A DNA stretch of 64,000 nucleotides, from contig JAUQPF010000046.1 in NCBI GenBank assembly GCA_030550535.1, positions 1-64,000 of the forward strand, given 5' to 3'. The notes beneath the pieces are model-generated. The model worked only from the letters and a program-made list of their open reading frames with translations, made no database searches and was not told where the DNA came from. The position numbers and the translations under genes were made by a program. Origin of the DNA: Candidatus Bipolaricaulota bacterium (GTDB lineage: Bacteria; Bipolaricaulota; Bipolaricaulia; Bipolaricaulales; Bipolaricaulaceae). Below, piece by piece: positions 43,901 through 57,048 of the stretch. Within the stretch, counting starts at the first letter, position 1, and every line of letters begins with the position of its first letter.

Positions 43901-46834
43901 GTGCGGCTGCGCTTGGACGCATACCTTCTGCGCGAGCTCCTTCCGCCTTTCCTCGTTTCCCTCTTGGCTTTCTTGGTGTTCATAAGCCTGGAGCTCGTGC
44001 TCTCCCTTTCCGATGCCCTTTTCGCCCGTGGCGTCCCCGCCCTTTCCCTTCTTAGGCTTTTGAGCTTCAAGCTTCCCAACATCCTGACCCTAGCGGCGCC
44101 CGCCGGGGCCTTGCTCGCCACCTTCCTGGCCTTGGCCCGCCTCGCCTCCGATCGCGAGCTTCTGGCCCTGCAGGCCCTGGGGTACTCCCTGCGCCGCATC
44201 CTCCTCCCGTTTTTGGGGTTTGGGCTCGCGGTGAGCGTCCTCTCCTTGGTGTTCTCCGAGCTCGTCGTGCCCGAGGCGGAGGCCCTCTACCGCCGGGAGC
44301 TTCTTGTGCTCCTTTACCGCGGCCCCACCCCCACCATCCAGGAGAACGTGTTCTTTCGGGGCGCAAAGGGTGAGCTCTTCTACGTGGAGCGCTACACCGG
44401 CTCCCGGGTGGAGGGCGTGGTGATCTACGACCTTTCGGCCCAGCTTTTCCCCCGCAGCCCCTTCCCCGCCGTGATCACGGCCAAAGAGGGCGTGCTCGAG
44501 CGGGGGGAGCTCCTCCTCCGGGAGGGCCGTGTTCTTCGGTTCGGCCCAGCCGGCGAACTCACGGAAGTCCTGGGCTTTGGGGAGTTGCGCTTCGAGGTGG
44601 GGGAGAAGCTGGAGGAGGCCGTTTTGGGCGGCCGTACCCCAAGCGAGATGTCCGCCCGGGAGCTCAGGGAACGCATCGACCTTCTCCGGCAAAGCGGGCA
44701 CGACGTGCGGGCGCTCTGGGTGGAGTACCACGGGAAGCTCGCCATCGCCGGTGCGGCCTTCGTTTTCGTGCTTTTTGGTGCGCCGTTGGGGGTCCTCTTG
44801 GGCCGGCGGGGCCGGGCCACGGGCATGGTGGTGGGGTTCCTGCTCGCGGCCGGCGCCCAGGCCCTGTTCCTTTGGGCCCGCACCCTCGCCCGCCGCGGCC
44901 TCCTCCCCCCCTTCCTCGGCGGCTGGCTCCCCCACCTCGTCTTGGGTTCCCTCGGGATCCTCCTCTACTTGGGCGCGGATCGGCTGCGCTTTCGCGGGGC
45001 CCTCCTTTTCCTTTTGGCCTTGGGCCTCACCGGCTTTGCCGCCCCGCCCCTCGCCGAGCTCTCCGCCGAGGAGTTGGTGGTGGCCGAGGAGGGCCGCTAC
45101 TGGTGCGGGCGGCAAGCGCGCCTGGTCCTTGCGGGCTACACCTTGGATGCGCGCGCGGCGGAGTTCTGGGAACGGGAGGGCTGGGAGCTCCAGGCCGAGG
45201 GGGCCCGGGTGGAGACCGAGGAGGGCTGGGTGGAGGCCCACACCCTGCGGGCGCGGCTCTCCCCGGAGGGCGAGCTCGTGTCCGCGGAGCTTCGGGATTT
45301 TCGGGGGGAGGTGCGGTTCGCTGGCCCCGAAAAACCGGAGACCCTCCGGTTCGCCGCGGCCCAGGGGGCGGTGGAGTTCCGCCAAGGCGAGATCACCCGA
45401 ATCCTCGGGAGCTCCGTCCTCCTCACCACCTGCCCCTGCCTCGAGGGCCCCCCCTACCTCATCTGGGCTGAGGAGTTCCTGCTCCTTCCCCAGCGCTGGC
45501 TCTTCGTGCGGAACGTGCGGGTGGACTCCTTCGGCTATCCCCTGGTTTGGCTTCCCTTCTATGCCGCGCGGCTTGGCGAGGAAAGCGTCCCGTTCCTGCC
45601 GGAGGTGGGCCGCACGGGCTTGGGTTGGTTTTTGCGCTGGTCCTTCCCGTGGACGCCCTGGGAGGGCGCCGTGGGAGCGTTGGTCCTCACCTGGTACCCG
45701 GAGGCCGGCCAGATCCGGCCCGGGCTTTCCGCCGCCTGGGAGGGCGGAAGCCTCTCCTTCGGGCTGGACCAGGGGTTCCTGCGCCTAAGCGGCCGGGTCC
45801 TCGGCGAGCCCTGGCAAGGGCAGGCCCGTTGGCTTGGGTCAAGCCTCACGCTGAACCTCTCGGGAAGGGTGCGGGGCTGGAGCCTCGGGATCCAGGCCGG
45901 AGCGGCGGAGGGGCCGCAGGGCCCGTACGCGCGGCTCCCCGAGCTCGCGCTCTCCCGCGCCCTCATGGCGTGGGGCGGGGATCTCCAAATCCGGCTGGGG
46001 GTCGGGCATTTTCAAGAGGGGGAGCGGGTGGGCTGGCGCGCCGGCCTCTCCTTGGGTTGGTCCCGGACCTGGGATCTTGCCCCCGTGCAGCTTAGGCTCG
46101 CTTGGGAAGGAGGGCTTGACCAGTATCCCGGGGCCGAGCGGCTGTATATCGCCCTCAACCCCAGCGCGGTCTGGGGCGGGCTCTCGCTCTGGGCCCAGCA
46201 GCGCCTGGCCCTGGGCCGCTCCCCCTTCGCCTTCGACGCTCTGCCCAGCCAGAGCCAGGCGGGCCTCACCCTGAGCGCCCGCCGCGCCCCGTGGACCCAC
46301 GAGCTCCGCCTGGGCTGGGATTTCCTGAGCCACGCACCTCTTCCCGCCTCCTGGACCCTAAGCGGGGCCAACTTCTCGCTCTCCGTTTCCCTGCAGCTCG
46401 TCCCGCCCAAGGTGCTGCAGGGGCAGGCGCGGTGGCGGGGGCAGGGTTCAGGCTGGACCCTGGCGGTGAGCGGCGGCTACGCCGGGACCTGGCAGGACCT
46501 TCTTCTGCGCGGCGCGTTCTCCCTATCCGGGCTGGAGCTCTCCTGGGGAGCCCGCCTCTCCCCTTGGCCGTTGGCCCCGCGTCGGGTTTACCTGAGCGCC
46601 GAGGGCGCCCTCGAGGGGGAATGGAGCTGGAGCATGGGGGTGGAGTACGACTTCCCCTCCCAGCGTTGGGTGCAGGCCGAAGTCGGGCTCTTCCACACCT
46701 TCGCCGGATGTTTACGGGTTGGGCTGCGCCTTGGGCTGGGCACCCTGCGCCTGAGCCTGGACATCCCGGCCTTCCCTGAGTTTTCCCTGCAGTTGGCGCC
46801 CCTGGACGAGGGCCTCCGCCTAGGCGGGCTATAA
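43901..46834 (+). CDS. LptF/LptG-type permease fused to LptD/OstA-like outer-membrane assembly domain
   Basis: Single ORF: N-terminal YjgP/YjgQ-like permease (MRLRLDAYLLRELLPPFLVSLLAFLVFISLELVLSLSDALFARG; LAIAGAAFVFVLFGAPLGVLLGRRGRATGM), then RLRFRGALLFLLALGLTGFAAPP, then OstA/LptD-like ELSAEELVVAEEGRYWCGRQARLVLAGYTLDARAAEFW...LLTTCPCLEGPPYLIWAEEFLLLPQRWLFVRNVRVDSFGYPLVWLPFYAARLG and a beta-barrel-like C-terminus. Confidence 0.88.
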   Translation: MRLRLDAYLLRELLPPFLVSLLAFLVFISLELVLSLSDALFARGVPALSLLRLLSFKLPNILTLAAPAGALLATFLALARLASDRELLALQALGYSLRRILLPFLGFGLAVSVLSLVFSELVVPEAEALYRRELLVLLYRGPTPTIQENVFFRGAKGELFYVERYTGSRVEGVVIYDLSAQLFPRSPFPAVITAKEGVLERGELLLREGRVLRFGPAGELTEVLGFGELRFEVGEKLEEAVLGGRTPSEMSARELRERIDLLRQSGHDVRALWVEYHGKLAIAGAAFVFVLFGAPLGVLLGRRGRATGMVVGFLLAAGAQALFLWARTLARRGLLPPFLGGWLPHLVLGSLGILLYLGADRLRFRGALLFLLALGLTGFAAPPLAELSAEELVVAEEGRYWCGRQARLVLAGYTLDARAAEFWEREGWELQAEGARVETEEGWVEAHTLRARLSPEGELVSAELRDFRGEVRFAGPEKPETLRFAAAQGAVEFRQGEITRILGSSVLLTTCPCLEGPPYLIWAEEFLLLPQRWLFVRNVRVDSFGYPLVWLPFYAARLGEESVPFLPEVGRTGLGWFLRWSFPWTPWEGAVGALVLTWYPEAGQIRPGLSAAWEGGSLSFGLDQGFLRLSGRVLGEPWQGQARWLGSSLTLNLSGRVRGWSLGIQAGAAEGPQGPYARLPELALSRALMAWGGDLQIRLGVGHFQEGERVGWRAGLSLGWSRTWDLAPVQLRLAWEGGLDQYPGAERLYIALNPSAVWGGLSLWAQQRLALGRSPFAFDALPSQSQAGLTLSARRAPWTHELRLGWDFLSHAPLPASWTLSGANFSLSVSLQLVPPKVLQGQARWRGQGSGWTLAVSGGYAGTWQDLLLRGAFSLSGLELSWGARLSPWPLAPRRVYLSAEGALEGEWSWSMGVEYDFPSQRWVQAEVGLFHTFAGCLRVGLRLGLGTLRLSLDIPAFPEFSLQLAPLDEGLRLGGL

Positions 46835-46843
46835 TCGCAGTTG

Positions 46844-47383
46844 ATGAGGAGGCGGGAGCGGCTTCCCGATTGGCTCACTGCCAGCAGGGTTCTCGTTGCC
46901 CTGGCCATCCTGGCCCTGATCCCGGTGGGGCCGCGGGCGCTGGGCGTGGTGGCCGGCCTCCTCCTTTTGGGGTGGACCACGGACATGGTGGACGGCCGGC
47001 TGGCCCGCCGCTACGAAAAGGGCCCCACCTGGCTTGGGGAGCACGACTTCCAGATCGACATGCTCATGGTCCTCGCCTCCGCCGTGTTCCTCGTGGGCAC
47101 CGGCCTCGTTCCTGTGGAGATCGGCCTTCCTTACATCGTCTCCGCCGTGCTCATCTCCCTTTACACCCTGCGCTACCGCCACTTCCTTAAGTTCAAGTCC
47201 GTGACCATGCTCCTTGCTTTCCCCTGGGTGTTCACGCCCTTCATCATCGCCCTCTTCCGCGATCCGGTGGCCGCCTACGCGGGCCTGGTGTGGATGGTCC
47301 TCGCCCTCGTTTTGGACTGGCGGCGCTTCCTTGGGGTGGTCGGCGATTTCCTGGCCGGGGCCAGGGCCTACTTCCGCCGCTAA
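46844..47383 (+). CDS. CDP-alcohol phosphatidyltransferase
   Basis: [46 protein letters not shown] (CDP-OH-P motif). Confidence 0.88.
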
Positions 47384-55106: not shown

Positions 55107-56071
55107 ATGGCCCTTTTGGGCGTACGCAACCTCACCATGCACCACGTGACGAAGATGGGGGACGTCCACGCCGGGGACGACGTCACGTTCGCCATCGAGC
55201 ATGGGGAGGCCATTGGGCTCGTGGGCGAATCCGGCTGCGGAAAGACCTCCATCGCCCTCACCCTCCTCCGGCTTCTGCCGGACAACGCCAAGTTCCTGGG
55301 CGGCCAGGTGCTGTTTGAAGGCGTGGACCCCACCCGTCTCCCCGCGGGCGAGATGCGCCGGATCCGTTGGCGGGGGATCTCCATGATCTTCCAGGCGGCC
55401 ATGAACTCCCTGAACCCTGTGTACCGTGTGGGCGACCAGATCATCGAAGCCATGCAGACCCACATGAACGTGAGCTATGCCCAGGCCCGCAGGCGCGTGG
55501 CGGAGCTCTTCGACCTCGTGGGCCTTGCGCCCGAGCTCATGGATCGCTACCCCCTGAGTACTCCGGCGGGATGAAGCAGCGGGCGGTGATCGCCATGGCC
55601 CTGGCCTGCGCCCCCAAGCTCGTCATCGCCGATGAACCCACCACCGCCCTCGATGTGATCGTGCAGGACCGCACCCTCCGCTGAATTGACGAGGCAAGAA
55701 AACAGCTGAACATGGCCATGATGTACATCTCCCACGACATCGCCGTGATCGCCGAGGTGGCCCAACGCATCGGCGTCGTGTACGCCGGGAACCTCGTGGA
55801 ATTCGGGGACACCCTGACCATCTTCCCGCGCCCGGCCCATCCGAACACGATCGCCCTCATGTCCGCGTTCCCCTCCTTGGAGGGGGAGCAACGGAGGCTC
55901 CGAGGACCTCTGGGGGAGCCCCCGGATCCTCTACGGCCTCCTTCGGGTTACCGTTTCCACCCCCGTTGCGCCTTCGCCACCCAGGTCTGCACCGCTCAGA
56001 TGCCCCCCTATGAGGAGATAGAGCCCGACCATTTCGTGGCTTGCTGGCATCCCCAACCGAGGAGGTCCTGA
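55107..56071 (+). pseudogene. Dipeptide ABC ATPase (DppD-like), one frameshift and one in-frame TGA
   Basis: GLVGESGCGKTSIALTLLRLL...APELMDRYP / [76 protein letters not shown]. Confidence 0.85.
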
Positions 56072-57048
56072 TGCCCCCTCCCGTCTTGGTTGAAGGCCTG
56101 ACCAAGCTCTTCCCGGTGAAGCCGCGGGTGTTCGCCCTGCGGGTGCGGCAGTACGTTCACGCTGTGGACGGCGTCTCCTTCTCCGTGGAGGAGGGGGAGA
56201 TCCTCGGGCTGGCCGGGGAGTCCGGCTGCGGAAAGACCACAACCGGAAAACTCCTGGTGAAGCTTCTGGAGCCTACTGCAGGTCGAATTGCCCTTGAGGG
56301 TCAGGACACCACCAGCATTCGTCGGGGCGAGGCCATGCGCACCCTCCGGAGCAAGGTTCAGATGATCTTTCAGGACCCCTAAGAGTCCCTGAACCCCCGG
56401 TTCACCGTGTTCGACACCATCGCCGAGCCCCTTTTGATCCAGGGGGTGCGGTCGCGGGCGGAGCGGGAGGCCCTGGTGGCGGAGATCCTGGCCCAGGTGG
56501 GCCTCACCCCGCCGGAAACCTTCATGTTCCGCTACCCCCATGCGCTTTCCGGTGGGCAACGCCAGCGCGTGGCCATCGCCCGGGCCATGGTCATCCGCCC
56601 GAGGTTCGTGGTGGCCGACGAACCCACCTCCATGCTCGACGTCTCCCTCCGCGCCGGGGTCATGGACCTCCTCCTGGGATTGCGGCAGGAACTCGGGGTG
56701 GGCTATCTTTACATCACCCATGACCTCGCGGTGGCTCGGTACATGTGCGACCGCTTGGCCGTGATGCACTTGGGAAAGATCGTGGAGGTCGGTCCCACGG
56801 AGGAAGTGCTGCAGAATCCTCTTCATCCCTATACCCAGCCCCTCATCGCCGCGGTTCCCGTGCCCGACCCCACGTACAAGCGGGAGCCCCCGGAGATCAA
56901 GGGGGACGTGGTGGCCCCCATCAACCCTTCGCCCCAATGCCAGTTCCTTCCGCGCTGTCCGAAATCTCGAGAAATCTGCCAAAGGTCGCCCCATCCTCCC
57001 CTTGTGGACCGCCAGGGCCATGGGGTAGTCTGTTACCCTGGCGTGAAC
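56070..57048 (+). pseudogene. Dipeptide ABC ATPase (DppF-like) with in-frame TAA in the QDPYxSLNPR motif
   Basis: GLAGESGCGKTTTGKLLVKLLEP...VQMIFQDP*ESLNPRFTVFDTIAEPLLIQG...LSGGQRQRVAIARAMVIRPRFVVADEPTSMLDVSL; TAA at 56380-56382. Confidence 0.85.

Follow-up and report, generated by a model that had tools for sequence, protein, structure and literature searches.

The Lpt system is the route that places lipid on the surface of diderm bacteria. LptF and LptG are its inner-membrane permease subunits and LptD is a Sec-exported outer-membrane barrel, and these proteins are normally encoded by separate genes. A locus in a Candidatus Bipolaricaulota MAG (assembly GCA_030550535.1) raises the question of how a permease and an outer-membrane barrel could be made from a single gene, and for which lipid. 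The window analyzed here is the whole stretch of 64,000 nt at positions 1-64,000 of contig JAUQPF010000046.1. The earlier note had described one continuous frame of about 977 codons in this DNA, and translation of positions 43901-46834 on the forward strand bore this out, giving a stop-free frame that opens with GTG and encodes 977 aa. The start region of this frame was also found in relatives whose frame opens slightly upstream. The features of the locus are as follows.

43901..46834, + strand: fused lptFG-lptD gene, whole; single frame of 977 codons plus stop, GTG start
43922..44968, + strand: LptF/LptG permease domain, residues 8-356 (TM1-3, periplasmic beta domain, TM4-6); from PF03739, PDB LptF and the helices and strands of the model
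44981..45040, + strand: internal signal-peptide-like segment, residues 361-380 (RLRFR n-region, hydrophobic core, GFA/A site); from a 53-protein alignment
45056..45430, + strand: OstA/LptA-like periplasmic beta domain (LptD N-terminal domain), residues ~386-510; from PF03968 in relatives and model strands 386-509
45425..45610, + strand: LptD signature block TTCPC...RNVRVDSFGYPLVWLPFY...FLPEVG with conserved Cys511 and Cys513; aligns with the FTSC block of E. coli LptD
45602..46795, + strand: LptD-type beta-barrel, residues ~568-965, with conserved Cys937 near the end; from AlphaFold, Foldseek and cysteine conservation
46841..47383, + strand: CDP-alcohol phosphatidyltransferase, 6 bp downstream of the fusion; from PF01066 (1.7e-9) and neighbor conservation

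Residues 8-356 matched the Pfam family LptF_LptG (PF03739) with E=2.6e-78 and 264 bits against a cutoff of 27.9, over profile positions 2-351 of 353, which is near full length. The permease half also matched solved LptF and LptG chains in the PDB, and the NCBIfam models TIGR04407 and TIGR04408 matched the permease domain below their equivalog cutoffs. The Pfam and PDB matches, along with the helices of the model, confirmed the earlier assignment of residues ~1-360 to an LptF/G permease. No second full PF03739 gene was found in the genome of origin or in the other 91 LptF/G-bearing genomes; the extra PF03739 rows were gene fragments or below-cutoff matches and were left out as second copies. 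Instead of two paralogues that form a heterodimer, as LptF and LptG do in E. coli, a single copy was present. Since LptF/G is single-copy, the permease halves would be expected to form a homodimer.

The permease is followed by a segment that reads D360-R-L-R-F-R-G-ALLFLLALGLTGFA/APP, with basic residues, a hydrophobic core and a signal-peptidase-like site, GFA/APP (the slash marks the predicted cut). The same order, TM6 followed by a net-positive n-region and then a hydrophobic core, was present in 53/53 fused proteins in the alignment. The motif [AGSVT]x[AGS][QADE] was found past the hydrophobic core in 46/53 proteins compared to 18±3 in shuffles, a contrast that is inflated by kinship since the statistic treats related sequences as independent. 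The median distance from the last K/R to the nearest small-x-small site was 13 residues, and the best -3/-1 site was mediocre in some relatives. The full-chain AlphaFold model had low confidence at 360-379. Signal peptidase S26 is encoded in the genome of origin. Segment seven had previously been read as an internal signal peptide cut at FAA/PP. The conserved junction features favor such a peptide, but GFA/APP is the likelier site because FAA/PP would place a proline at +1.

The earlier note had offered two fates for this chain, a polyprotein or a permanent tether between the inner and outer membranes (IM and OM). In the window, LptD is not a separate protein with its own N-terminal signal peptide, and such proteins were seen in the genomes G050, G056 and G077, which are described below. 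The conserved sites at the junction and the signal peptides on separate LptD genes make a polyprotein that signal peptidase I cleaves the most likely product, and they disfavor the tether. If the tether were correct, segment seven would stay in place as a TM anchor and one chain would bridge the IM permease and the OM barrel. This would fit the retention of the single frame in 76/92 LptF/G-bearing genomes, the TM-length of the hydrophobic segment and its uncharged flank (median 19 residues) and the lack of any free-standing PF03968 (LptA-type) gene beyond the fused or separate LptD frames in the genomes searched, including the genome of origin. However, the small-x-small sites are conserved directly past the hydrophobic core, the halves are separate in family f5 and in G077, where the LptD genes have N-terminal signal peptides, and the OstA domain starts ~6-10 residues past the segment. 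With so short a spacing, a tethered OstA domain would begin at the IM, so that a single domain would need to bridge the periplasm. A permanent tether is thus unlikely, and we are similarly doubtful that the chain is never cut and serves an LPS-free phylum as a covalent lipid bridge, with one protein anchored in both membranes. Another possible explanation is that the LptD half is also or mainly produced by internal initiation near the junction, or that the fusion is cut by another protease. TTG codons are present at residues 372 and 374, but no purine-rich Shine-Dalgarno-like stretch lies ahead of them and a start at either one would delete the basic n-region, and we regard this explanation as very unlikely.

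After segment 361-380, the chain continues with an OstA-like part containing TTCPC...VRVDSFGYPLVWLPFY and then a barrel-like C-terminus. The C-terminal half of the window protein (~597 residues) had no match of its own in the Pfam or NCBIfam scans and, therefore, was identified through relatives, profiles and structure. PF03968 (LptD_N) was above cutoff at the same place in the fused or free LptD half of relatives. The LptD half in the window was below the PF03968 cutoff, yet it aligned with these PF03968-positive relatives. Of the curated barrel models, PF04453 matched in L044 (family f5) alone, with 17 bits, below the cutoff of 22.4, and PF19838 gave no match. LptD and LptA were among the weak best PDB matches of a 27-relative profile, and an alignment of the profile of relatives to E. 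coli LptD (E=6e-5) ran through the TTC and PFY blocks. For a 26-sequence profile and the free-standing LptD of L044, the alignment covered 533 columns (E=4.5e-37).

A full-chain AlphaFold model, which had been proposed as a check, contained helices, a jellyroll and a large barrel (pLDDT 77, pTM 0.41), and the C-terminal half was modeled with a pLDDT of 85 and a pTM of 0.62. The jellyroll and large barrel are the fold of LptD. In Foldseek, LptD ranked first for the full-chain model (E about 1e-20) and filled the first 37 places for the C-terminal-half model (4q35, E=9.7e-21). The best TM-score was a moderate 0.53 by query length, so the LptD fold family is firm but the structural details are not. 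Among rows with a residue at the position, C511 was conserved in 51/51, C513 in 48/51 and C937 in 47/47. E. coli LptD has an interdomain disulfide, with cysteines at a TTC-type block and near the C-terminus. Foldseek, the PF03968 matches of the relatives and the profile comparison all agree, and these predictions support the identification of the C-terminal half as LptD, which had been suggested from its OstA-like region, TTCP block and long barrel. A beta-barrel of different function that merely resembles LptD would be consistent with the missing Pfam match in the window, but given the LptD-only run of Foldseek places, the LptD_N family in relatives, the TTC and PFY blocks shared with E. coli LptD and the attachment to an Lpt permease, this is highly unlikely. 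The OstA region was longer than that of the window in L031, L033, L035 and L036 (families f4, f6, f8 and f3, respectively), where the LptD half apparently contains an extra OstA-type stretch.

LptF/G was found in 92/100 Bipolaricaulota genomes, with essentially one gene each, and the 76 single frames counted above are at least 900 aa long. Relatives had been suggested as a place to look for the fusion, and the same one-frame arrangement indeed recurs across the phylum, which rules out a sequencing error or a coincidence. Aligned members of the fusion were 26-79% identical to the window protein, and almost every named relative was a Candidatus Bipolaricaulota/Acetothermia MAG. The genome scan worked with a closer alignment; one built across the class was too diverse for it. 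No relative of the fusion was found in viral contigs. That two adjacent genes were joined through a lost stop by an assembly or sequencing artefact is barely conceivable, since a small indel could join genes that lie 2 bp apart as in family f5, but dozens of independent MAGs, two of which are single-contig genomes, share this frame, and the junction features are conserved.

Sixteen LptF/G frames were shorter. Those of G057, G060 and G099 end at contig ends, and the remaining ones, apart from three true separations, were apparently cut by contig ends or N runs, as judged from coordinates or second-contig matches. The possibility that the short frames are separate genes was rejected for those checked because of the contig ends, which leaves G050, G056 and G077. 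In G050 and G056 (family f5), lptFG and lptD are adjacent but separate, 2 bp apart, and are preceded by lptC-like and lptB genes. The f5 loci L044 and L045 have the order lptC-like, lptB, lptFG, lptD on one strand, with lptFG and lptD as unfused neighbors. In G077, LptF/G ends inside the junction segment (RRAVPFLGGLAAG, then a stop), and LptD, encoded >1 Mb from it, has its own signal peptide at the start (MRAIAAVAAVVCAVLAPVVLA/ADEV; L085 and L106). A simple misjoin is unlikely since this LptD has a full signal peptide; the G077 split is a natural, secondary fission of the fusion. In a quick tree of the permease domain, G077 fell among fused f2 members, and f5, on long branches, lay close to the root. 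Two separate genes in relatives had been named as grounds for refuting the fusion. This arrangement was seen in three genomes from two lineages, but it does not count against the fusion in the window. LptD was also absent, by profile, from the eight genomes without LptF/G, and the genome sequences indicate that the two are lost together. The eight are G037, G039, G083 and G084 (genus g14) and G041, G044, G047 and G053 (family f5), and Omp85 was retained in the members that were searched.

Other components of an Lpt system were also found, namely LptB, an LptC-like protein and BamA. LptB (G000:C10:28934-29635, in the genome of origin) scored 269.6 bits against an equivalog cutoff of 240. Just upstream, and abutting lptB, lies the gene for a 200-aa protein whose N-terminus resembles a signal peptide, and this neighbor was present in 24/25 of the own-family genomes searched. 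The protein matches the same places as the PF06835 LptC matches of G046 and G049 and, thus, appears to be a divergent LptC. The idea that this family has no LptC, based on the lack of a PF06835 match, was dropped because the divergent LptC adjoins lptB. The LptC-like protein (L054 5334-5936, C10 of the genome of origin) has a cleavable-looking signal peptide (AWAQ) instead of a clear anchor and, therefore, might act as a soluble LptA/C. Omp85/BamA was detected in 56/60 genomes, including the genome of origin. Within the window, LptB-profile matches at 55167-56820 fell in a sequence that resembles an ABC ATPase but is interrupted by in-frame TGA and TAA stops. The stops near 55556-55822 and 56158-56820 perhaps reflect an error in the frame or an ABC transporter gene that is broken.

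LpxC, which marks the lipid A synthesis of an LPS-type Lpt system, was found in 0/60 genomes, the genome of origin included. This is in line with the statement that the Ca. Bipolaricaulis Ran1 genome has no LPS genes (PMC6092417). The CDP-alcohol phosphatidyltransferase is the same-strand neighbor of the fusion in every own-family locus whose downstream flank could be read, and also in the 3 f6 loci. From this gene order, the enzyme is probably co-transcribed with the fusion and is a candidate for making the cargo lipid. Since LpxC was not found and this enzyme appears to share an operon with the fusion, a non-LPS lipid, either a phospholipid or a glycolipid, is the probable cargo. The motif of the own-family enzyme is DxxDGxxAR-x9-GEH(D/E)-x3-D, which is one residue shorter ahead of the third acidic residue than the textbook motif ending Gx3Dx3D.

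We consider it likely that the fusion encodes, as a single precursor that is later cut, both the LptF/G and the LptD of an Lpt machine that exports lipid in cells without LPS. The permease half would insert with both ends cytoplasmic, and the basic-hydrophobic segment would serve as a Sec signal peptide within the chain, directing the LptD half to the periplasm. Signal peptidase I would cut after GFA, and BamA would fold the freed LptD half into the outer membrane. A homodimer of two permease halves would be driven by LptB, and lipid would pass from the LptC-like protein to the OstA domain of LptD and on to the barrel.

In nearly all of a poorly known phylum that seemingly lacks LPS, one gene encodes both membrane ends of Lpt. 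The presence of LptD in a lineage described as having no LPS genes prompts the question of which cargo Lpt has when LPS is missing, and the lipid synthase in the same apparent operon provides a lead. If the precursor is cut, an outer-membrane protein would be delivered through the internal signal peptide of a multispanning precursor. The lineages with separate genes offer ready-made comparisons.

The Bipolaricaulota system shares with E. coli Lpt (LptB2FGC-A-DE) the LptF/G permease, the LptB ATPase, an LptC-like protein and an LptD with OstA domain, barrel and cysteines. It differs in that one LptF/G copy is fused to LptD and in that neither LpxC nor a free-standing PF03968 LptA gene was found in the genome of origin. 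The Lpt clusters of Negativicutes and Halanaerobiales, which make LPS, likewise have a single LptF/G homologue, LptB and OstA-domain proteins, but no LptD was found in them (PMC5007114), whereas Bipolaricaulota have LptD, fused to the permease, and no LpxC was found. Borrelia burgdorferi, an LPS-less diderm, has also kept Lpt orthologues, in a six-protein system with a proposed glycolipid cargo (PMC10353723); in contrast, permease and translocon are one gene here. A single LptF/G (PMC5007114) and an LPS-less Lpt (PMC10353723) are therefore already known, and no report of an LptF/G-LptD fusion was found in the literature searched. Our survey of its occurrence covered the phylum Bipolaricaulota. 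A similar layout is that of FbcH from Bradyrhizobium japonicum, a cytochrome b/c1 polyprotein in which an internal signal peptide connects a polytopic inner-membrane protein to the exported domain behind it. FbcH is a respiratory enzyme that is cut into two products, both of which stay at the inner membrane, whereas the second product in Bipolaricaulota would be an outer-membrane barrel.
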